From Pedobacter glucosidilyticus DSM 23534 (lineage in GTDB: Bacteria > Bacteroidota > Bacteroidia > Sphingobacteriales > Sphingobacteriaceae), in the NCBI RefSeq assembly GCF_000425145.1, contig NZ_AULF01000013.1, forward strand, positions 56,373 to 120,372: a stretch of 64,000 bases of DNA. The letters are read 5' to 3'. Position 1 is the stretch's first letter. Every line of letters begins with the position of its first letter. Shown piece after piece: positions 54,326 to 64,000 of this stretch. The notes under the pieces were generated by a model. That model worked only from the letters and a program-made list of their open reading frames with translations, did not search any database and was not told the DNA's origin. Made by a program: the position numbers and the translations under genes.

Positions 54326-54600
54326 ACAAACTATATTTAATACCCTATAAATAACCTGTGATTTACAAGTTAGTATAGAGTAAGTTAAGAAGAAGCTAAA
54401 GTGTAGGGATGAAGTGTTGAATACATGAGTTTATAAAAAATATTTTTAAGCTATACTGATGATGAGTAATGCCTCAAATATTTTATAAAATCACTTTAAC
54501 CAAAAAATAGAGTATTTACGAGCTTAACCTATAGTTTAATGAAGGAGTTTGTTTAGGTGTTACCGATGTAGATATGTTACTTACAAGTATATCATAAAAT

Positions 54601-54650
54601 TATCCGTGTATATCCGTGTATATCCGTGTATATCCGGATATACACGGATA
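54601..54650 (+). repeat. Five 10-bp units forming direct repeats and a perfect 30-bp palindrome
   Basis: TATCCGTGTA is repeated three times (54601-54630), followed by the self-complementary TATCCGGATA (54631-54640) and TACACGGATA (54641-54650), the reverse complement of the first unit. Bases 54621-54650 are therefore a perfect palindrome. It ends 46 bp before the recombinase ATG, a position suited to an operator or a recombinase-binding site. Confidence 0.85.
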
Positions 54651-54696
54651 ATAGTTTTCTTAATCCTTATTATTGTTGGAATTTTTAGATAAAGTA

Positions 54697-56118
54697 ATGA
54701 AAATCGTTTTATATGTAAGGCTATCTAAACATCATGAAAAACAGGTTTATACGTATTTCTTTCAGAAAAATTTAGCCTTATTTAAATGGTTATTGAATTT
54801 AGATTTCTTTAATTATGATGCAAAGCTAAAACTTCTCTATACACTAGCAGATGATGATATTCTGGAAAAACTGGTGAGCTTATCAAATAATAAATTGGTT
54901 ATAAATAAAAGTTACATACAGGCCGATGCGATTAAGCAAGCACAAAGAGTTAATAAGAAGGTTCAAAATCGTTTTGAAATACCCAAACATGATTATAAAC
55001 AGTTACGCTTATTTGTTAAAACTGCTATTATACAGGATAAAAAGTTTTATTTGTTAACAACAGAGCATGTAAATAGATGTAAAGAAGTTATTAAAGGACA
55101 TGATTTTATCCAGTATAATAGGAAGTTAGACGCTTTTTTGATTCCGCATCAAGAAAAAGACTTATTAAGTTTACTTAAGATTGTAAAGGGTAAGCTATTT
55201 ATAGCTATTCATCAACACGTTAATATTCAAAGTTTGTATTTAAATTCTCTTATTTGGAGTCAATCTTATAACGTTGATATAGAAGTTCCAAATTCATATT
55301 TATTGCATCTGAAAGCTAATAATTATAGTTTAAACACCATACAAAATTACTATACATCTTTCTTTCAATTTTTATGTTACTGCCGTTATTTAAATCTTGA
55401 TTATCAGAAACTTACTCCAGAAGAGATAAATAATTTGGTTGTTAAATTAAGCTTAAAAAACGCTCTAAGCACTAGTAGTTCTCATTCGATCATCAATGCC
55501 ATTATGTACTATTATAGAAGTTTATTAGGTTTAAAGGCTTATCAAAATCAAATTATCAGACCTAAGAAAGAGAAAGTATTACCTAAGGTAGTGGATTCAA
55601 ACACTATAGCCACTATCATTAAGAGTTGTGAGAACATAAAGCATAAAGCTATGTTATCGCTCATTTATGCTTGTGGGCTTAGGGCTAGCGAGTTAATTAA
55701 TCTAAAAGTAGAAGATATTGATAGTAAAAGAATGTTGATACATATACACTATGCAAAAGGGAAGAAAGATCGTCAGGTTATGTTATCAGAAAAGCTATTA
55801 ACAATATTGAAATTATACTATAAGGAACATAAGCCCAAATATTATCTATTTCAAGGGCAATACGAAGATCAGTATGCTGTAAGCTCTTTAAGACAAGTCT
55901 TGAAAAAAGCCTGTTTAAAAGCTGGAATTAAGCAACCCATAACATTACATTGGTTAAGGCACTCTTTTGCAACACATCTTTTAGAAGCCGGTACAGATAT
56001 ACGCTATATACAACAGCTTTTGGGGCATAGCAGCACCAAAACCACCGAAATTTATACTCATGTAAGTACAAAGCATATTAGCCAAATAAAAAGTCCTTTA
56101 GATAATTTGAATATTTAA
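54697..56118 (+). CDS. Integron-integrase-like tyrosine recombinase lacking the IntI-specific domain
   Basis: 473 residues from ATG 54697 (an in-frame TTG at 54673 is less likely). The catalytic set is complete: R329 (YACGLRASEL), Lys in AKGKKDRQV near 356, H418-x2-R421 (HWLRHSFATHLLEAG), H444 (LLGHSS) and Y453 (TEIYTH). A SAM-like core-binding domain comes near 194-285 (LLHLKANNYSLNTIQNYY). The Lys-to-HxxR gap is about 40 residues shorter than in IntI1, so the added IntI domain is missing. About 195 extra N-terminal residues contain a YNRKLDAFLIPHQEKDLLSLL segment. The tail IKSPLDNL recalls the SPLD tail of IntI1. It presumably recombines the attC-like sites downstream. Confidence 0.9.
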   Translation: MKIVLYVRLSKHHEKQVYTYFFQKNLALFKWLLNLDFFNYDAKLKLLYTLADDDILEKLVSLSNNKLVINKSYIQADAIKQAQRVNKKVQNRFEIPKHDYKQLRLFVKTAIIQDKKFYLLTTEHVNRCKEVIKGHDFIQYNRKLDAFLIPHQEKDLLSLLKIVKGKLFIAIHQHVNIQSLYLNSLIWSQSYNVDIEVPNSYLLHLKANNYSLNTIQNYYTSFFQFLCYCRYLNLDYQKLTPEEINNLVVKLSLKNALSTSSSHSIINAIMYYYRSLLGLKAYQNQIIRPKKEKVLPKVVDSNTIATIIKSCENIKHKAMLSLIYACGLRASELINLKVEDIDSKRMLIHIHYAKGKKDRQVMLSEKLLTILKLYYKEHKPKYYLFQGQYEDQYAVSSLRQVLKKACLKAGIKQPITLHWLRHSFATHLLEAGTDIRYIQQLLGHSSTKTTEIYTHVSTKHISQIKSPLDNLNI

Positions 56119-56148
56119 AATCTAATACTAAATTGTAACTTAATCGAA

Positions 56149-56190
56149 AAATATGCGCTATAGTATAGCGGATATTTACTAGTTATAGCC
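56149..56190 (+). other. Candidate attI (primary recombination site)
   Basis: Arms AAATAT-G-CGCTATA and TATAGCG-G-ATATTT (56149-56177) form a 29-bp inverted repeat with one base mismatch pair and a single central G. Five bases later is GTTATAGCC (56182-56190), the first base set of cassette 1, identical to the core site of cassette 2. It starts 30 bp after the recombinase stop. No T run follows the stem, so a terminator is less likely. Confidence 0.65.
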
Positions 56191-56209
56191 AATTTTAAAA
56201 TCGATAACA

Positions 56210-56881
56210 ATGGGATTAGACATGATACCAATGGGGAAACCCAAACCTGGATTTGAGAAACGTTTCATTGAGATATTTGAAATGGTTTCTAAAGACAATA
56301 TTCCTCAACCTTCATTTCTTGACAAACTTAAGGGGAAAAAATATCCGACCAAAGACGAACTTTTGCAAGAATGGTTAGCTAACCAAATCCAGACTTATGA
56401 GACAATTAAAGCACCGAGGGTTGGAAGGGACAAAGAGGCTGACGAATGGATTAGAAACAAATACAATGAGATTGAACAAAAGGTCCCTATAGAGCAATTC
56501 TTGAAAGACTATGACGGCTATTATGTAATTGAGCTTGCAAAAGAACAAGACGGAGTTCCTGTATATATTGCAATGGGACAGGACGAAAATGTGTTTCGTG
56601 GACAATTCCTTCAAGACTGCATTGACTTAATCGGCGAAGATTTGGTAAATGAAGCGTGGGAGACAAAACTTGCTGAAGCAACATTAGATTATGGGCAAAG
56701 ACTTATGACAATTGCAGACAAAATCGCAAACGAAAAGAATTTACAATATTTAAAAGACCAGCGTTTACCACCCGATACAGACGAAGACAGTATTGAAAGT
56801 AAAATTCATATAGTTTTCTCTCTTGCAAAATGGTTAATCTTTTATGGAAAAAATGGACATGGCTATGAGGCTGACTTCTAA
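56210..56881 (+). CDS. Cassette 1: soluble protein of unknown function
   Basis: 223 acidic residues without signal peptide or helix. It begins MGLDMIPMGKPKPGFEKRF. Middle segments KVPIEQFLKDYDGYYVIELAKEQDGVPVYIAMGQDENVFRGQFLQDC and LVNEAWETKLAEATLDYGQRLM suggest a mixed alpha/beta fold. No family recognised. The start is 20 bp after the GTTATAGCC boundary, and the stop is 11 bp before the inverse core site GGCTATAAC, the tight fit expected of a cassette gene. Confidence 0.75.
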   Translation: MGLDMIPMGKPKPGFEKRFIEIFEMVSKDNIPQPSFLDKLKGKKYPTKDELLQEWLANQIQTYETIKAPRVGRDKEADEWIRNKYNEIEQKVPIEQFLKDYDGYYVIELAKEQDGVPVYIAMGQDENVFRGQFLQDCIDLIGEDLVNEAWETKLAEATLDYGQRLMTIADKIANEKNLQYLKDQRLPPDTDEDSIESKIHIVFSLAKWLIFYGKNGHGYEADF

Positions 56882-56891
56882 AAGAAAAACT

Positions 56892-57140
56892 GGCTATAAC
56901 AGCACCTACCCAAAAGGCTGGGGTAGTGGTTTTTCCGAATGTTAAATGGAAAATCGAGAAGTAACAGAAATAAGAATAAATTTGAGTAAAAGATCAGCCC
57001 TCCGGGTAGCTGCGAAACGTCAAACTGTCTAAAAACCTCAAAATTGAAATTCTATATACGGACACCTATCTTACAAAATTCTTGTATATTCAATTCTCAG
57101 CGATTAGATTTAGGTTTTTAGACAAACTGACGTTATAGCC
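56892..57140 (+). repeat. attC site of cassette 1, interrupted by a 109-bp element
   Basis: Inverse core site GGCTATAAC (56892-56900), short spacer, then arm CTACCCAAAAGGCTG pairing with the distal CAGCCCTCCGGGTAG (near 56996-57010). The distal core reads CTGCGAAACGT and is split after ACGT (57017-57020). Removing the insertion plus one ACGT copy restores GAAACGTTATAGCC and a 136-bp site like its siblings. Confidence 0.85.
57021..57129 (+). mobile_element. 109-bp MITE-like insertion with ACGT target duplication
   Basis: Ends are CAAACTGTCTAAAAACCT and AGGTTTTTAGACAAACTG, which are inverted repeats at 15 of 18 positions. It is flanked by ACGT on both sides (57017-57020, 57130-57133). There is no ORF. 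Excision of the element and one ACGT rebuilds a canonical attC core, which strongly supports real transposition into a pre-existing site. The mobilising transposase is not in the window. Confidence 0.75.
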
Positions 57141-57180
57141 AATTTTAGGACGACACCAAACTAACGACAGAAACAGAAAT

Positions 57181-57807
57181 TTGAAACGAAAAATCACATA
57201 CGGACTTTTGACAATTCTACTTTTTGGAGGGCTCTATTTCGGACTTCGTTTTGCATACGGACTTTTTACGCCTTTCAACTTTTGGACAGCGGGACAAGAC
57301 ATTAAAAACGGAAAAATTCAAATAACTGAAATTGGAGAAATGCCATTGAACTTTGAGCAAAAACAAAAACTTGCTAACTCTTATGGTTTTGACTTTAATC
57401 TATTTGGTTGCAATGTGACAACAGACGTAATAAACGGGACAGAATATTACAATAAGACAATGGTTCACCACTTGGAAAGCAAATATGGTATTGGTTGGTG
57501 GGCAAAATTTAATGCTCAACTTGACAGCATTGACAAGGCAAATTCGGCTGACCTGACAATTGACAAAGTATTAGACCTTGTTGCAGAACGGAAGATAGTA
57601 AAAGACCAAATTAAACTCATTGACAGTTTATCAAAAAGCCAAAGACACATTTCACTTGTTCCGACCATGGACGACTCAACGAAAAATATTTACCTTGTGA
57701 AAGTTGGCGAAGACAACGGAATGAATTTAGTAACTTATTACAACTTTTTGGTGGACGCAAACTCAATGACAATTATTAACGCAGACGGAAAACTTGAAGG
57801 ACAATGA
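57181..57807 (+). CDS. Cassette 2: membrane-anchored protein of unknown function
   Basis: 208 residues from a TTG start at 57181; no in-frame ATG exists nearby. One N-terminal membrane helix (TYGLLTILLFGGLYFGLRFAYGLF, about 6-29) precedes an extracytoplasmic domain with FGCNVTTDVINGTEYYNKTMVHHLESKYGIGWWAKFNAQLD near 75-115. No family recognised. It sits between GTTATAGCC (57132) and GGCTATAAC (57819), exact reverse complements. Confidence 0.75.
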   Translation: MKRKITYGLLTILLFGGLYFGLRFAYGLFTPFNFWTAGQDIKNGKIQITEIGEMPLNFEQKQKLANSYGFDFNLFGCNVTTDVINGTEYYNKTMVHHLESKYGIGWWAKFNAQLDSIDKANSADLTIDKVLDLVAERKIVKDQIKLIDSLSKSQRHISLVPTMDDSTKNIYLVKVGEDNGMNLVTYYNFLVDANSMTIINADGKLEGQ

Positions 57808-57818
57808 AAAGAAAAACT

Positions 57819-57955
57819 GGCTATAACAGCACCTACAAGAAATTGGCGATTCAGTGGTTAAATGAAGTTTTGTGCTTCGTATCAAGTTCGGTGGTGGCAG
57901 ACAGTTTTCGTCTCCGAAATCGCCAACTTCTTGTAGCTGCAAAACGTTATAAGCC
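57819..57955 (+). repeat. attC site of cassette 2
   Basis: 137 bp. Inverse core GGCTATAAC (57819-57827), spacer AGCAC, arm CTACAAGAAATTGGCGATT. The distal partner AATCGCCAACTTCTTGTAG precedes a longer spacer CTGCAAAAC and core GTTATAAGCC (57946-57955). The unequal spacers (5 and 9 bases) match the unpaired central spacer of attC. The arm sequence differs from sites 4-6 at the same positions on both sides, so pairing is kept by compensating changes. Confidence 0.9.
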
Positions 57956-57975
57956 ATTATAAAAACTCGACATAA

Positions 57976-58605
57976 ATGAACCACTTGAAATTCTTGATAC
58001 TCACATTAGTCTTATTTTTTTGTGTAAACAAATCTAAGGCACAAGTCGACCATTTAGAACCAGTAGGAGGAATCTTTGATGTTTATAGCTTTCAGTTTGA
58101 TTATTATTCCAGTGTAAGAAAAGTACTTTTCAATGGGTTGACTGATGACCCTGAAATAAGATTTTTAGTAATGCCATCATTTAGTCCAGAAAATGTTTTA
58201 GATATAATCAAAGACGAAGAAAAAGATAAATATTATATTGAGTATCACATAGCAGAACAGAGCATTTGGTATTCGAAAAATAAAGCTGATGTGAAAATAT
58301 CTAAATTTCGAAAACAGTTATCAAAGTCTTCTGTGGAACTTATAAAAAACCTGTACCGAACTGCGATTTTAAATTCAAGATTTATCCATAAAGAAAGTTT
58401 AGGAGTTGACGGAACTCAATACTTTTTTTCAATTAACGACAGAGGTCTTAAAACTGGAACCGTATGGTCACCGGGGGAAAAGAGCTCAATGAGGGAATTA
58501 GTTGAAGTGGGATATGGTTTAATTGAATTTGTTAAAAGTGACAAAGTCGAAATCAATAACGACCTAGAAGAAAGAATAAGAAATTTAATTATAAAACTAA
58601 AATAA
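57976..58605 (+). CDS. Cassette 3: secreted protein of unknown function
   Basis: 209 residues with a signal peptide (MNHLKFLILTLVLFFCVNKSKAQ, cleavage near 23). The mature part has IRFLVMPSFSPENVLDIIKDEEKDKYYIEYHIAEQSIWYS and LGVDGTQYFFSINDRGLKTGTVWSPGEKS. No family recognised. It starts 20 bp after GTTATAAGCC and stops 1 bp before the inverse core GGCTTATAAC, so almost no spare DNA is carried. Confidence 0.78.
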   Translation: MNHLKFLILTLVLFFCVNKSKAQVDHLEPVGGIFDVYSFQFDYYSSVRKVLFNGLTDDPEIRFLVMPSFSPENVLDIIKDEEKDKYYIEYHIAEQSIWYSKNKADVKISKFRKQLSKSSVELIKNLYRTAILNSRFIHKESLGVDGTQYFFSINDRGLKTGTVWSPGEKSSMRELVEVGYGLIEFVKSDKVEINNDLEERIRNLIIKLK

Positions 58606-58606
58606 C

Positions 58607-58745
58607 GGCTTATAACAGCAAATTTGTTCAAAAATGGCTGACGGTGGTTTACGTCGATTCATCAGTTATTTATTTAATTTAGTGCGGTACGACGATGGTT
58701 CTGCAAGCAATGCCATTTCTGCACAAATTTTCAAAACGTTGTGCG
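58607..58745 (+). repeat. attC site of cassette 3 (divergent sequence, same architecture)
   Basis: 139 bp. Inverse core GGCTTATAAC (58607-58616), arm AAATTTGTTCAAAAATGGC, distal partner GCCATTTCTGCACAAATTT, then TCAAAAC and core GTTGTGCG (58738-58745). Apart from the cores and the AAAAC spacer it shares little sequence with the other sites, yet the fold is the same. This is how attC sites of unrelated cassettes behave. Confidence 0.85.
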
Positions 58746-58753
58746 TCATTTTA

Positions 58754-59380
58754 ATGAAAGACCTGCTAAACATATTAATTGCCGAAAGACAGACACTTTT
58801 ACGTGGACTAACAATCTCGTTTTTACTTGTTTTTCCATTCACGTTCTTGCCGACAATAATTAGTAACGGTTGGACTTTACAACCAATTATTCAAAGAATT
58901 CCAGACTCGACACTTTATGCTTTTGGTTTTTCATTCATAGTGGTAGTTGCTTCTGTGCTTCATAATTACAATAACCTTGTTGACAGGAAAAGGATATTTG
59001 ACAAACCAGCGTTTAAAAAACTTGACTTCTATGGACGACTTGACGGTTTAGGAAGCATTGTAAGCGAACTTGAAACATTCCTTTTAGGTAAAATTGACAA
59101 ATACTACTACCGACTAAATATCATTGACCCTGACCTAAAGAAATTCAAAGTTGAAATCATACCGTTAATAGACTTCACAGACAACGAAGAATTGAAAGAA
59201 ATACTAAAAAAGGAGCACAATTTCAGAGAAGACTTATTAGTTGGACAACTCATAAACCTAACAGAACAAGACCTTGAAAATGAAAATTTACTTCGGGACA
59301 GATTATTAAATTTGGACAAAATATTAATGGAATTAGGAGCAGTAAAACTTGACATTAACGAAAATGACCTTGACGACTAA
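58754..59380 (+). CDS. Cassette 4: two-helix membrane protein of unknown function
   Basis: 208 residues from ATG 58754. The open frame extends upstream to an ATG at 58634, but those 40 codons are attC sequence, so the later start is chosen. Two hydrophobic helices lie near 18-36 (LTISFLLVFPFTFLPTI) and 49-68 (LYAFGFSFIVVVASVLHNY). A charged cytoplasmic domain rich in Glu/Leu/Asn helices follows (LINLTEQDLENENLLRDRLLNL). No family recognised. Confidence 0.75.
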   Translation: MKDLLNILIAERQTLLRGLTISFLLVFPFTFLPTIISNGWTLQPIIQRIPDSTLYAFGFSFIVVVASVLHNYNNLVDRKRIFDKPAFKKLDFYGRLDGLGSIVSELETFLLGKIDKYYYRLNIIDPDLKKFKVEIIPLIDFTDNEELKEILKKEHNFREDLLVGQLINLTEQDLENENLLRDRLLNLDKILMELGAVKLDINENDLDD

Positions 59381-59394
59381 AGAAGAAAAACGAA

Positions 59395-59530
59395 CGCACA
59401 ACAGCACCTACCCAAAAGTGGCGGTCCAGTGGTTAAATCAAGCTTTGTGCTTCTATCAAAGTTTGTGCTTGGCTGACAGTGAAGTGCTTCGAAATCGCCA
59501 CCTTCGGGTAGCTGCAAAACGTTAGGCACA
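59395..59530 (+). repeat. attC site of cassette 4
   Basis: 136 bp. Inverse core CGCACAAC (59395-59402) is the exact reverse complement of this cassette's first bases GTTGTGCG at 58738. The arm CTACCCAAAAGTGGCGG pairs with ATCGCCACCTTCGGGTAG. The central part (ATCAAGCTTTGTGCTTC and following) forms further stem-loops. Core GTTAGGCACA is at 59521-59530. Nearly identical to sites 5 and 6 outside the core boxes. Confidence 0.92.
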
Positions 59531-59552
59531 ATTATAAACAGACACCGTAACA

Positions 59553-60212
59553 ATGAATATTGCTTATAAGACAAGAAATTTTTATCCTTACGAGTTACGA
59601 ATATTAAAGACATTGAAAACTCAGAAAGAAAAAGAAACAAGTAGTAAAATTAAGTTCTATCATTATCTTATTGCAGGACTTTTAGGGGCAAGTTTGACAT
59701 ATGTTACGGCTATAATTCCTGATAGCTTTTGGACTTTTCTTTTCGGGACAATTGCTGTTTTTGCTTTTGCATTTATTGTATTTATGCCTTACGAAATCTA
59801 CAAAAAGAAAAATCGATATAAATTATTTTTGCGACAACTAAGCACAACTTTAGAGAAAGGAACGGTTGACACTTGTGTAGTTAAAACCAAAAGAATTGCA
59901 ATAGCACCAGAATATGAAGATGAAAGTGACTTGTATATTATTGAACTTAACGACAACGAAGTTTTATATCTGTGGGACACCGAATACAATCTTAATAAAA
60001 AGTTCCCTTGTTTAGACTTTGAAATATACGAGGACAGCTTTTTCAAACTCATAGGCAGACAGATTTACCCGTTAAGCGAAAAAATCCAACCAGTGAAAAT
60101 TGACAAGAACGCAAAATGGAATTTTATGAAAACATATGGAGCATCTGGACATTTAGAAACCGAAAATATAAACTTTGACGAACTACTACAGAAATATAAT
60201 AACTGTGCCTAA
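59553..60212 (+). CDS. Cassette 5: two-helix membrane protein of unknown function
   Basis: 219 residues from ATG 59553. Two adjacent hydrophobic helices near 33-49 and 54-75 (LIAGLLGASLTYVTAII, FWTFLFGTIAVFAFAFIVFM) are followed by a soluble domain with LYIIELNDNEVLYLWDTEYNLNKKFPCLDFEIYEDSFFKLIG. The stop codon TAA is formed by the inverse core site (TGTGCCTAAC). No family recognised. The start is 22 bp after GTTAGGCACA. Confidence 0.78.
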   Translation: MNIAYKTRNFYPYELRILKTLKTQKEKETSSKIKFYHYLIAGLLGASLTYVTAIIPDSFWTFLFGTIAVFAFAFIVFMPYEIYKKKNRYKLFLRQLSTTLEKGTVDTCVVKTKRIAIAPEYEDESDLYIIELNDNEVLYLWDTEYNLNKKFPCLDFEIYEDSFFKLIGRQIYPLSEKIQPVKIDKNAKWNFMKTYGASGHLETENINFDELLQKYNNCA

Positions 60213-60340
60213 CAGCAGCTACCCAAAAGTGGCGGTTCAGAGACTAAATCAAGCTTTGTGCTTCTATCAAAGTTACAACTTGCTTGACAGTGAAGCGCTT
60301 CGAAATCGCCACCTTCGGGTAGCTGCAAAACGTTATATGC
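60204..60340 (+). repeat. attC site of cassette 5
   Basis: 137 bp. Inverse core TGTGCCTAAC (60204-60213) mirrors the cassette start GTTAGGCACA over all 10 bases. Arm CTACCCAAAAGTGGCGG and partner ATCGCCACCTTCGGGTAG, spacer CTGCAAAAC, core GTTATATGC (60332-60340). Very similar to sites 4 and 6. Confidence 0.92.
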
Positions 60341-60385
60341 AACCCTAACGAACCACAGTGCAACCAACAAAATAAAAGAAAATAA

Positions 60386-62071
60386 ATGCAAATAGACTTC
60401 ATTGGACACGGACTTAACACGGACAACAGATTAAATGTTGGCGACCAGTTAGCGACTTCCTTTGGCAGTTCACACTTTGACAGTTTTATTGGTTTTGTTG
60501 CATTTGCTGCAATTTCAGGCGTAAATAAATTATTACCGTCAATATTAACAGCTCAAAGGAAATATAAGAAACTAGTTTTTTTTATTGGCGTTGACAACAA
60601 AGGGACATCAAAAGAAGCTCTTGAATTACTTTTAGAGAAAAATATTGAAACTTATATTTATCATAAGGACGCAGAACAGATAACCTATCATCCAAAGCTT
60701 TTTTTATTTGAAGGAATCAGACACACAAGAGTAATTATTGGTTCTTCAAATCTTACATATTCAGGTTTCTTAAACAACATTGAAGCATCAATACAACTTG
60801 ACTTCAAAACTGGCACAGACAAGCAAGGAAACAAACTTTTGAAAGAAGTTAAAAGTTACTTTGCAAACTTAATTGACCTTTCCGACAATAGCGTTTTTAA
60901 ACTTGACAAAGAACTAATTGAAAAATATGATAAGGCGGGACTTTTATATTCACAAATAAGAACAGGAAAAGGCACATCCGAAGAACAACCAAATGATGGC
61001 GAAAACCCTGAAGAAAAATCTATTACAACACCATTTTACACAGACGAATTTGGTGACGGTCAAGAACCAATTGAACGACCAACTTATGAAAGGAAAATAA
61101 ACGTTACCGCAAACGATTATGAAGTATTTCCCTATTTTCTTGAACGATACAAAATTTACAAAAGAGATGTAAGAACTTCGGGAGTTGTTTACAAAGACAC
61201 TAAAGTTCCAGAAGAAATGGAGTTGTTAGTTTGGTATCAAAGAATGAAAGAACTTATTAAACACAATGCTTTGCCTGACGAACTTGCAATGCAACTAATT
61301 GACGCTGATTTCCCAATTGAGAACGGTTGGATAAACACAATTAGAATGTGGTGGGACATTAAGTTTCAAAAACTACTGGAATTTAAAGAGAAAGAACAAA
61401 AGCATTTAGATTACACATACGTCATTCAGACAAAAAACCCTGATAGTCCGCATTATGAATTAGGTAGATGGATTGCCCAACAAAAACAAAGAAGAAAAGG
61501 ACAAAATGGTTCTGCTTGGACTGATTACGAAGAAGAAAAAATGAAGTCCATAAACTATATGTGGGATGTTCCAGATTTTGGCGACTTTGGAAGCAAACCT
61601 AAAGATGATGATTGGGCAGACAGATTAGTTGAACTCGAAGAATATTATAGTGATAAGAATAATTTCAAAACTATTCCTCATCAAAGCACTAAACTTGGAA
61701 AGTGGTTAAACGAACAAATTACTTTAAAACTTACTGGAAGCAGGGGAAAAGTAAAAAAATTCTTGCATCCAATAAGAGAAGCAATGCTTGGTGATGTTTT
61801 AAGTAAAAATGGTGTAGAATGGAAATGGCAAGAACAAAAAGAAAGAGAAGCAATTATTAATGGACTTGCTAGATGGAACGAGTGGAAAGAATGGCAAAAA
61901 ACGGTCGTAGGCAGACAACTTACAGAAGAAGAAAAAAAGTATCACAAGACAAATCAGGATTGGGTTTCGCAAACAAGACACAGAACTAAAAAATGGGAAC
62001 CTTGGAAAATTGACTTGCTATTTAAAGCTGGTTTTCCAATACCAAAATCGGACGACAACACAAATGACTGA
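60386..62071 (+). CDS. Cassette 6: PLD-type nuclease with helicase-associated-like C-terminal repeats
   Basis: 561 residues. The N-terminal ~200 form a phospholipase-D-like catalytic domain: H102-x-K104 (YHPKLFLFEG), GSSN at 119-122 (VIIGSSNLTYSG) and E133 (NNIEAS). One HKD motif suggests a dimer, as in BfiI/NgoFVII-type nucleases. From about 290 the chain has repeated W-, L- and K-rich helical units (WWDIKFQKLLEFKEKEQKH, YELGRWIAQQKQRRKG, STKLGKWLNEQI) resembling helicase-associated DNA-binding repeats. A DNA-targeting defence or restriction role is likely but not proven. Confidence 0.8.
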   Translation: MQIDFIGHGLNTDNRLNVGDQLATSFGSSHFDSFIGFVAFAAISGVNKLLPSILTAQRKYKKLVFFIGVDNKGTSKEALELLLEKNIETYIYHKDAEQITYHPKLFLFEGIRHTRVIIGSSNLTYSGFLNNIEASIQLDFKTGTDKQGNKLLKEVKSYFANLIDLSDNSVFKLDKELIEKYDKAGLLYSQIRTGKGTSEEQPNDGENPEEKSITTPFYTDEFGDGQEPIERPTYERKINVTANDYEVFPYFLERYKIYKRDVRTSGVVYKDTKVPEEMELLVWYQRMKELIKHNALPDELAMQLIDADFPIENGWINTIRMWWDIKFQKLLEFKEKEQKHLDYTYVIQTKNPDSPHYELGRWIAQQKQRRKGQNGSAWTDYEEEKMKSINYMWDVPDFGDFGSKPKDDDWADRLVELEEYYSDKNNFKTIPHQSTKLGKWLNEQITLKLTGSRGKVKKFLHPIREAMLGDVLSKNGVEWKWQEQKEREAIINGLARWNEWKEWQKTVVGRQLTEEEKKYHKTNQDWVSQTRHRTKKWEPWKIDLLFKAGFPIPKSDDNTND

Positions 62072-62081
62072 AAGAAGGGCA

Positions 62082-62217
62082 GCATATAACAGCACCTACC
62101 CAAAAGTGGCGGTTCAGTGGTTAAATCAAGCTTTGTGCTTCTATCAAAGTTTCTGCTTGGTTGACAGTGAAGTGCTTCGAAATCGCCACCTTCGGGTAGC
62201 TGCAAAACGTTAGCGGT
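62082..62217 (+). repeat. attC site of cassette 6
   Basis: 136 bp. Inverse core GCATATAAC (62082-62090) mirrors the cassette start GTTATATGC (60332). Same arms and spacers as sites 4 and 5; distal core GTTAGCGGT at 62209-62217. Confidence 0.92.
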
Positions 62218-62238
62218 CAGGCTAAAAAGACAGACACG

Positions 62239-63852
62239 ATGATAAAGAAATGGTTACAAGACATATTTGACAAAAAAGAATCCATAGAGATTAAAGAATG
62301 GAGAACTGATAATTCTATTCTCAAATTCCTTTCTTCAAACTTGGACGAAAACGGTAATCTGTCTGAAAAAGCACACGACCTTCCAGACGAGAAAAAAGAT
62401 GATGACAAGTTAAGATTTGCACCGGGACTGATGGATGCAATGTTTGGTGCAGATGATTCAGATGACTCTAAAAAAAGAATTAGAGAGTTAACAAAACACC
62501 TTAAAAGGGTTGCTTCAAAAGGTGACAAAATAAACGAACAGGAATTTTACCGACTAATCACAGAAAACGAAGGTGTGATAGGAATTATTGATGACTTTTT
62601 ACAAGTTATAGTTAATGATTCATTACCGATTGAACCTTATCTTTTTAATTATGCAAAAGATTTAACCACAAAAACAGACAAAAGAAATGTAGTAAAATTT
62701 GGGATTGCAATTTTAGGATTGTGCCAAAATAAATCTGTTCTTAACGACATTAAGATTTTAGGCTTACACGATGAGTTTACTGTTTATTCAACAATTGCCA
62801 TTGCAAATTTATCGGACAATGCAGAAAATGACCTTTGGGAATTAGCGAAGAAAGTTGACGGTTGGGGTAAAATTCAATTAGTTGACCGATTATCAAGACC
62901 TGAATTAAACGAGCCAATCAAAGATTGGCTGATTTATGAAGGGTATAAAAACAGCATTATGTATGAATACTTGGCATACACTTGTGCTATTAATGGAGAA
63001 CTTCATAAGAAATTAGAACCCGATGAAATAAACCACAAACTTTTCAAGTCGGCTTCTGACATAATTGAAGCACTTATTGCCATTGGTGGGCCAGCTGAAG
63101 ACATAACTACCTACCCTTTTGCTTCACAAGTCATCGAAGATTTCATAAGACACGCCAAAATCCAAGCTAACGACATTTCTGACTTTAACGCATTACACAA
63201 AATCAAAGACTTTCTTACAGAGTTACAAAATGACATTGGGGAACAAAAAGAAAATGGTTGGACTCAAGATATTATCTCAAACTGCTTAATTGAAATCGTT
63301 GAAATATTAAACAGTAGAGATTGGAAAGTTGCAGTATTTGAAGGATTAAAAAGCAATGATAATGTGATGTATTGGAACGCCAAACACGCAGCGGAAAAAT
63401 TGGAGATTGATTTATGGGAAACAGTTTGGGCAAAACTGCAAGAGAAACCTTTGGATAGTTCTTCTTTGTATGACGTTACACATTATAGCAAACCAGAACA
63501 CTCTGATTTAATCATAGACTTTGCTCTAAAACACTTGCCTTTAGACGAAATGGCAACGGGACCGAGAGATTCAATGGGTTTTGGAGAGAACTATAACAAA
63601 TTTGGTAGTTTAGATTATGTCATTACATTTTTGGAAAACTATCCAAAAAAAGGAGAGCAAATTATTCTAACAGGATTAAAATGCCCTGTTACGAGAAACC
63701 GAAATATGGCTATTAAAGTTTTGGACAAGTGGAAAAAAGAAAATTGGTCGCCAGAGATTGAAAGAGAAATTAGGCATTTAGCAGAAATTGAACCGAACAA
63801 CGACACAAAAGAGAACATTAAACGACTTTTGAATGGACAAGAACTCAAATAA
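62239..63852 (+). CDS. Cassette 7: large helical (HEAT-like) protein of unknown function
   Basis: 537 acidic residues, no signal peptide or membrane helix. Repeated helical pairs with Leu/Ile/Ala spacing (NVVKFGIAILGLCQNKSVLNDI, EFTVYSTIAIANLSDNAENDLWELAKKVDGWGKIQLVDRL, DVAIEALIAIGGPAED-type) suggest HEAT/ARM repeats over most of the chain, and the C-terminus returns to this pattern (ILTGLKCPVTRNRNMAIKVLDKWKKENW). Likely a protein-interaction scaffold. It starts 21 bp after core GTTAGCGGT. Confidence 0.75.
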   Translation: MIKKWLQDIFDKKESIEIKEWRTDNSILKFLSSNLDENGNLSEKAHDLPDEKKDDDKLRFAPGLMDAMFGADDSDDSKKRIRELTKHLKRVASKGDKINEQEFYRLITENEGVIGIIDDFLQVIVNDSLPIEPYLFNYAKDLTTKTDKRNVVKFGIAILGLCQNKSVLNDIKILGLHDEFTVYSTIAIANLSDNAENDLWELAKKVDGWGKIQLVDRLSRPELNEPIKDWLIYEGYKNSIMYEYLAYTCAINGELHKKLEPDEINHKLFKSASDIIEALIAIGGPAEDITTYPFASQVIEDFIRHAKIQANDISDFNALHKIKDFLTELQNDIGEQKENGWTQDIISNCLIEIVEILNSRDWKVAVFEGLKSNDNVMYWNAKHAAEKLEIDLWETVWAKLQEKPLDSSSLYDVTHYSKPEHSDLIIDFALKHLPLDEMATGPRDSMGFGENYNKFGSLDYVITFLENYPKKGEQIILTGLKCPVTRNRNMAIKVLDKWKKENWSPEIEREIRHLAEIEPNNDTKENIKRLLNGQELK

Positions 63853-63859
63853 AGCCCGA

Positions 63860-63868
63860 ACCGCTAAC
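63860..63868 (+). repeat. Inverse core site of cassette 7; rest of attC not recognised
   Basis: ACCGCTAAC is the exact reverse complement of the cassette's first bases GTTAGCGGT (62209). The next bases (AGGCGTAACTGTTGCACAAC) do not match the arm of the other sites, and no distal core is seen before the window ends. Confidence 0.7.
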
Positions 63869-64000
63869 AGGCGTAACTGTTGCACAACTCACTAAATAGT
63901 TAATAAAATCATTTTATTAAGTAAAGAAGCGTTATTTAAAGCTGATATAAGCGAGGCTCATTTTTTTTGGTGTTTTATTGTTTGTAAAAAAAGCGAGTCT
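63869..64000. other. Right-edge sequence of uncertain identity
   Basis: 132 AT-rich bases after the cassette-7 inverse core, containing TGTTGCACAACTC and a pair of similar motifs AAGCGAGGCTC and AAAGCGAGTCT. It may be the left half of an unrelated attC or the end of an insertion sequence interrupting it. No gene can be called. Confidence 0.4.

Follow-up and report, generated by a model that had tools for sequence, protein, structure and literature searches.

The stretch of DNA analysed here (64,000 nucleotides of the genome of Pedobacter glucosidilyticus DSM 23534, hereafter the window) lies at the end of contig C10, in a genome of 4.02 Mb that is 99.9% complete. Its last part contains a gene for a tyrosine recombinase followed, on the 3' side, by an attI-like site and by an array of seven cassettes of one gene each, all of them on the + strand, with six structured sites between them. 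The recombinase gene (54697..56118, + strand) goes from an ATG at 54697 to a stop at 56118 and codes for a protein of 473 aa (481 aa if an alternative TTG at 54673 is the start). The protein has all the catalytic residues (R329, K354, H418, R421, H444 and Y453) and an N-terminal extension of about 200 aa, and lacks the insert specific to the integron integrases (IntI). A homologue in one relative is 60% identical. A preliminary description of this DNA had already recognised a tyrosine recombinase with a complete catalytic set and seven one-gene cassettes behind it, and both are confirmed here. It also described six structured sites of a uniform length of about 136 bp; their number is correct, the length is not, since the five intact ones measure 138-141 nt and the sixth is split by an insert of 113 bp.

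In integrons, each cassette starts with an R' box that pairs with the R'' box at its own 3' end, the two being complementary because both derive from one circle. The same pattern is found in the window, where every one of the seven cassettes begins with the reverse complement of the bases with which it ends, 10 nt long in cassettes 1, 2, 3 and 5 and 9 nt long in cassettes 4, 6 and 7. Insertion of circular cassettes opened at G^TT would produce such ends, which are the strongest evidence for an integron design. The sites (attC) were located with models, R1 and R2, that start from the window's own sites (five intact), and all of them lie on the + strand. Cassette 1 (56183..57132, including an inserted element) has an open reading frame (ORF) at 56210-56881 (223 aa, no known identity); the left part of its attC lies at 56891..57018 (R1/R2 match 56891-57028), and its GTT is displaced to 57132. 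Cassette 2 (57133..57946) codes for a FEKKY-domain protein (ORF 57181-57807; 58 bits to NF052319, cut-off 26) and is followed by attC 2 (57818..57955). Cassette 3 (57947..58738; ORF 57976-58605, no known identity) has an attC (58607..58747) that is divergent in sequence with its stem plan unchanged. In cassette 4 (58739..59521; attC 4 at 59393..59530) the ORF goes from an in-frame ATG at 58754 to 59380, a longer frame from 58634 beginning within attC 3. Cassette 5 (59522..60332; ORF 59553-60212, no known identity; attC 5 at 60204..60341) precedes cassette 6 (60333..62209; ORF 60386-62071; attC 6 at 62081..62218), whose product has PLD-like and helicase-associated domains (Pfam). Cassette 7 (62210..63868 up to its own R'', which is 63861-63868; ORF 62239-63852) is again of no known identity, and no site was recognised between its R'' and 64000, where both the window and the contig end. 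PADLOC gave only weak matches in the window, none of them outside the PLD part of cassette 6, and Rfam had no match there at gathering score.

The matching of cassette ends extends to the relatives. We have used 93 of 97 site matches, leaving out three cut by the end of the locus and the window's attC 1, which is interrupted; AAC and GTT were both in register in 86 of the 93. In this earlier set, comprising relatives and the window, the two ends of the cassette agreed at 6 or more of 7 nt in 39 of 48 cassettes, as compared with 4/86 when R' was set against R'' of the same site and with 3.4% of 7068 random pairs of sites from different loci. A larger set was compiled without single-site loci, pairs more than 3000 or less than 150 nt apart, sites without AAC/GTT in register and two short matches (L141 15964-16038 and L152 13892-13966), and here the figure was 88 of 102 cassettes. 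The longest ORF of these 88 cassettes was forward in 77 and reverse in one, and ten had none of 50 aa.

The attI-like site (56119..56184, + strand) lies directly behind the recombinase gene and consists of a dyad (ATAT-CGCTATA/TATAGCG-ATAT) followed by TATTTACTAG^TTA, with a predicted insertion point between G56182 and T56183. The nucleotide homology of the window to two relatives, G010 (97.4%) and G008 (67%), spans this site and ends at 56185, three bases beyond the cut. Relatives likewise have a dyad 3' of the recombinase, and after it a motif similar to CATATATACAAG^TTA. Among loci that score at least 199 bits and whose downstream sequence covers 150 nt or more, the motif was present in 29 of 57 (vs 5.7% of shuffles), starting 57-142 nt after the stop codon (172 in one locus with a shortened reading frame). 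An independent test compares the bases that follow this GTT with the distal end of the first cassette, and the two agree in 18 of the 19 loci where both could be read. The arms of the dyad vary between genomes but by eye still complement each other, as though every recombinase came with an arm sequence of its own.

These results bear directly on the idea that the sites are ordinary repeats, similar to miniature inverted-repeat transposable elements, that chance to flank genes. They are indeed repeated and similar to one another. But such repeats would not yield complementary ends of 9-10 nt specific to each cassette, and neither the forward genes in 77 of the 78 matched cassettes with an ORF nor the agreement between the bases adjoining attI and the distal end of the first cassette would be expected of them. 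This reading, already contradicted by the test of end matching, retains practically no probability.

The structure of the sites is conserved across loci. In 97 sites, 83.0% of the cells of the stem are paired, vs 57.5% in shuffles and at most 44.6% after sliding, and two-sided (compensatory) changes occur in all 37 stem pairs (748 cells vs 272 in shuffles). The alignment was fitted to a model built from five sites of the window, which leans toward that structure, and the excess of compensatory changes is large in spite of it. The unpaired spacer is unequal, with a single A after AAC (95%) and approximately AA[A/C]C before GTT. The classical R' consensus of attC sites, GTTRRRY, fits only 7 of 86 sites.

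Sites of this kind are present in over 100 related species, and recombinase and sites occur together. Homologues of the recombinase (E<=1e-40) were found in 65 of 120 genomes, the window's own included, and sites (E<=1e-4) in 93. All 65 recombinase-positive genomes have sites vs 28 of the 55 negative ones, and the 27 genomes with no site are all recombinase-negative. A site is present within 5 kb in 44 of the 75 recombinase loci examined (relatives only, the window excluded). In 32 of the 44 the closest site lies downstream on the recombinase's own strand, in 12 it is upstream on the other strand, and no third orientation is represented; all 94 sites within 5 kb fall into these two arrangements (77 and 17, respectively). 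The upstream type, made up of a lineage of 279 aa, one group of 360 aa and the locus L121, is the classical integron geometry and the window has the inverted one. In inverted integrons, of which Treponema provides an example, the array adjoins the 3' end of intI. Among the 46 compared family members other than that of the window, 33 have a site within 5 kb.

Could the housekeeping XerC/XerD recombine the sites, the local recombinase being a relic or a regulator? The recombinase is Xer-like in its domain plan and Xer-like proteins exist in the window's genome. However, Xer is to our knowledge nearly universal, and despite this the 27 genomes that have no site are precisely among those that have no recombinase of the family. 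The catalytic set is complete in 31/31 proteins of lineage A and in 15/16 of lineage B of the family (46 of 47 members in total), and the orientation to the array is fixed within 5 kb. We regard this explanation as highly improbable.

A different possibility is that a canonical IntI located elsewhere made and moved the cassettes, the array being a cluster of attC sites lacking integron integrases (CALIN) next to an unrelated recombinase. Integrase-less arrays are described as common elsewhere in PMC9024848. Among 395 genomes sampled from the phylum (in the GTDB sense), 182 had sites, 115 the recombinase and 105 an IntI over the cut-off, and 70 site-positive genomes had neither enzyme at the limits used, which also speaks for this possibility, as does the presence of two canonical IntI genes in the relative G045. 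Against it, no match to the IntI profile over the cut-off was found in the window's genome, nor in any of the 120 genomes except G045, and in the phylum sample no IntI accompanies the sites in any of the 72 genomes of the window's class that have them. Only one of the 105 IntI-positive genomes belongs to this class. In recombinase-negative genomes of the sample, sites were rarer with IntI (13/77) than without it (70/203), and 99 of the 115 recombinase-positive ones have sites; these searches scored only 4 to 8 candidates per genome, so that the absences are soft. In G045, the 20 kb around each of the two IntI genes contain no R2 site. Finally, the attI-like cut point is located directly 3' of the recombinase and agrees with the first cassette in 18/19 loci. 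Altogether, we consider a remote IntI very unlikely. G045 carries a Bacteroidota-type system in addition to its IntI genes (L217 and L218); an identical IntI is found in Solitalea lacus (P0121).

R2 found no site in 15 of 15 genomes outside the Bacteroidota, an empty result that shows nothing by itself and for which the Bacteroidota runs serve as the positive case. When R2 was run on 63 of 80 recombinase loci taken from named records, a site was found in 19, corresponding to 19/36 loci with the name of a Bacteroidota group in the title, 0/26 with that of another group and 0/1 labelled only 'bacterium'. In 18 of them the sites are downstream on the strand of the recombinase (among these are Algoriphagus, Cyclobacterium, Flavobacterium, Aquiflexum, Winogradskyella, Seonamhaeicola and Pontibacter), and in one (L153) upstream on the opposite strand.

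How different is the enzyme from IntI? The additional domain that is specific to IntI lies near patch III. The integron integrase profile TIGR02249 gives 191.7 bits with the window's recombinase, below the cut-off of 265, and aligns in two pieces that leave positions 182-240 unmatched; the 10 relatives scanned all score 187-218 bits. In an alignment-based count, the spacing between the catalytic K and H is 63-69 residues in 47/47 family members (window included) and 100-106 in 16/16 IntIs. The best match in NCBIfam is NF040815 ('site-specific tyrosine recombinase/integron integrase' in its NCBI name), with 208.3 bits vs a cut-off of 220 that is passed by 5 of 10 relatives. The recombinase is also well below the cut-offs for XerD (181.8 vs 329.6 bits) and XerC (173.2 vs 335.15). 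In a quick tree of 79 rows, the IntI rows together with one from Planctomycetes form a starred branch that excludes all 47 family members, and the two Xer rows from the window's genome form a separate starred branch. That the 47 members are a single clade is not rejected (p-AU 0.629).

The N-terminal extension contains, in many family members and not in all, repeats with a W-S-x(5)-W pattern. By sequence, these bear a tentative resemblance to HARP and DUF5710. At E<0.1, two of 32 N-terminal pieces matched HARP and nine matched DUF5710, and of 10 scanned relatives P0104 alone passes the Pfam threshold for HARP (PF07443; 25.9 vs 25.0 bits). HARP was not seen in the window's recombinase in the Pfam scan, comparison of the repeats with PDB sequences gave no convincing match, and literature searches on HARP/DUF5710 returned nothing specific to them. 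HARP has a role in the binding of structured DNA. A lineage of 279 aa without repeats yet with arrays indicates that the repeats are not required.

A glimpse at the dynamics of the array is provided by G010. This relative has the same neighbour protein (93.5% identical), which we take to be Maf-like, the same intergenic sequence and the nearly identical attI region described above, with a recombinase without its 5' part, and its cassettes differ from those of the window from the G^TT of attI onward. Homologues of cassette 6 were found in 4 of the 119 other genomes, at five places: between two attC sites in G011 (87% identical), behind a site in G013 (58%) and, as one of two pieces, before a site in G006; the second piece in G006 and the match in G024 have no site. 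For cassette 7 there is no homologue at E<=1e-15 in the 119 other genomes. The system is also present on plasmids. One from Chryseobacterium has the recombinase and the attI motif together with four sites and a truncated fifth, and a second plasmid has the recombinase and the attI motif, with no site in the 9 kb taken. Recombinases about 50% identical are found on plasmids of Acinetobacter and Klebsiella, one of them annotated as TnpF.

The window's genome has more of these elements. Contig C21 carries a second platform (L130 8663-8956), a decayed duplicate with an upstream repeat, the start and the end of a recombinase gene without the middle, and an attI region 90.7% alike, after which come two attC sites. 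The upstream repeat preceding this remnant is similar to short direct and inverted repeats of TATCCGTGTA units that a repeat search found just 5' of the window's recombinase (54599..54652), a candidate control region. Further sites are present on contigs C1, C2, C19, C21, C26, C36 and C51, with 19 R2 matches in the genome in all (one site may count on both strands). Those on C1, C19, C21, C26 and C36 are near contig ends, and the array is therefore probably longer and broken by the assembly. The end of the window after the last R'' (63865-64000) recurs in contig C19 at 97.8% identity (L132 2599-2735).

The element that interrupts attC 1 (57019..57131, 113 bp) lies at the cut point of the site and has inverted ends of about 20 bp like those of the IS1182 family. 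The inverted-end sequence begins exactly at the G of the attC GTT in five Bacteroidota places (the window; L041, reverse strand 12051; L060 17774; L167 12684; L219 3552), and the search pattern also matched one unrelated place (L188). It is followed by an IS1182-family transposase in both of the other loci examined for one, L219 (in two pieces) and L060 (N-terminal part), and the window has a 113-bp form without gene. The pattern suggests an insertion sequence with these recombination sites as its target; literature searches on insertion sequence targets gave nothing specific to it.

Taken at the level of DNA, the recombinase, the attI-like site, the self-complementary cassette ends, the stem-conserved attC-like sites and the co-occurrence in Bacteroidota can all be read from the sequence. 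We consider it very probable that this is an array of integron design whose cassettes were inserted as circles by the adjacent recombinase, in spite of its lacking the IntI-specific domain. The attC of a cassette would fold as a single strand, so that the R''/R' arms and the long stem form a site resembling double-stranded DNA; the recombinase would cut at G^TT, with exchange with attI resulting in insertion and with another attC in excision. Recognition would take place through the core enzyme, by means of the stem and the unequal unpaired spacer, and the N-terminal repeats might perhaps help to bind structured DNA. The proposal of the preliminary description, a Bacteroidota integron-like platform run by a recombinase that is not a canonical IntI, has thus gained support from the attI-like site, the complementary ends, the structured sites and the co-occurrence, and the score to the IntI profile agrees with its second half. 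The tree, by its quick method, favours the separate lineage that was suggested, homologues adjoin arrays of such sites across Bacteroidota in fixed orientation, cassettes vary in a close relative (G010), and the literature searches are consistent with a system possibly not described before.

Several observations weigh against this interpretation. The activity of the recombinase on the sites is something that we infer from sequence, and the IntI insert has been held essential for integron function (MacDonald et al., 2006, as cited in PMC8138268). One of the 16 lineage B proteins has an altered catalytic set. The attI motif is missing in 28 of 57 loci and was written only after the sequences had been inspected. 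The folding of single sites is uneven, bottom-strand DNA beating all 200 shuffles in three of five and being unremarkable in two. The training of R2 included sites from recombinase loci, and the co-occurrence count is for this reason not fully independent, whereas orientation and end matching are independent of it. No site was found within 5 kb in 31 of the 75 loci; 23 of these have less than 3 kb of contig downstream and three are of the upstream type (L107, L118 and L122), but five have more contig downstream (L076, L094, L098, L103 and L114). Beyond 5 kb, four sites in L047 and L108 lie upstream on the same strand. In the phylum sample, 16 of 115 recombinase-positive genomes have no site, to which the 70 site-positive genomes with neither enzyme have to be added.

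With canonical integrons the system shares a recombinase, an adjacent attI, one-gene cassettes in one direction, the G^TT cut, the R''/R' complementarity within each cassette and structured sites. It differs in the absence of the IntI-specific insert (47/47 vs 16 IntIs), in a score below the TIGR02249 cut-off, in its position outside the IntI clade, in an R' that is rarely GTTRRRY, in the strongly unequal spacer and in the frequent N-terminal extension. It is therefore an integron at the DNA level that fails both enzyme tests defining IntI, that is, an integron variant and not a canonical member. The simple recombinases of the XerA/XerC/XerD type (NF040815) have the same core domain plan and give the best NCBIfam match, but the window's family is tied to cassette arrays and the Xer rows of its own genome are on a separate branch. 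CALIN arrays are likewise attC-type clusters without canonical IntI, but the array of the window has next to it an attI-like site and a recombinase from a different lineage.

In the sections consulted, PMC9024848, PMC2426708, PMC8352920 and PMC9668308 define IntI by its extra domain, PMC8352920 names inverted IntIs, and PMC8618304 and PMC9668308 list Bacteroidota among the integron-bearing phyla. The integron of Salinibacter ruber, listed under Bacteroidetes like the present system, is called complete in PMC9024848; it was detected by IntegronFinder and hence has a canonical IntI, unlike the window. In its consulted part, the same paper names one complete integron in Bacteroidetes proper and none in class Bacteroidia. 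No description of a Bacteroidota system such as this one was found in the literature searched, preprints and most subscription papers being outside its scope.

We think it likely, at the level of sequence, that Bacteroidota carry a second and widespread class of integrons, unreported in the literature searched, whose recombinases would recognise folded attC sites without the IntI-specific domain. Sites with other integron hallmarks are present in 93 of 120 genomes, 65 of which have the recombinase without the extra domain. If this is true, the IntI-specific domain is not required for integron recombination, and a large pool of Bacteroidota cassettes, plasmids included, has been missed because surveys look for IntI. 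If the enzyme works on these sites, it would provide a natural test of what the IntI domain does, recombination of folded single strands would be possible in a plain Xer-like core, and a large gene-exchange system of the Bacteroidota would be opened to study.

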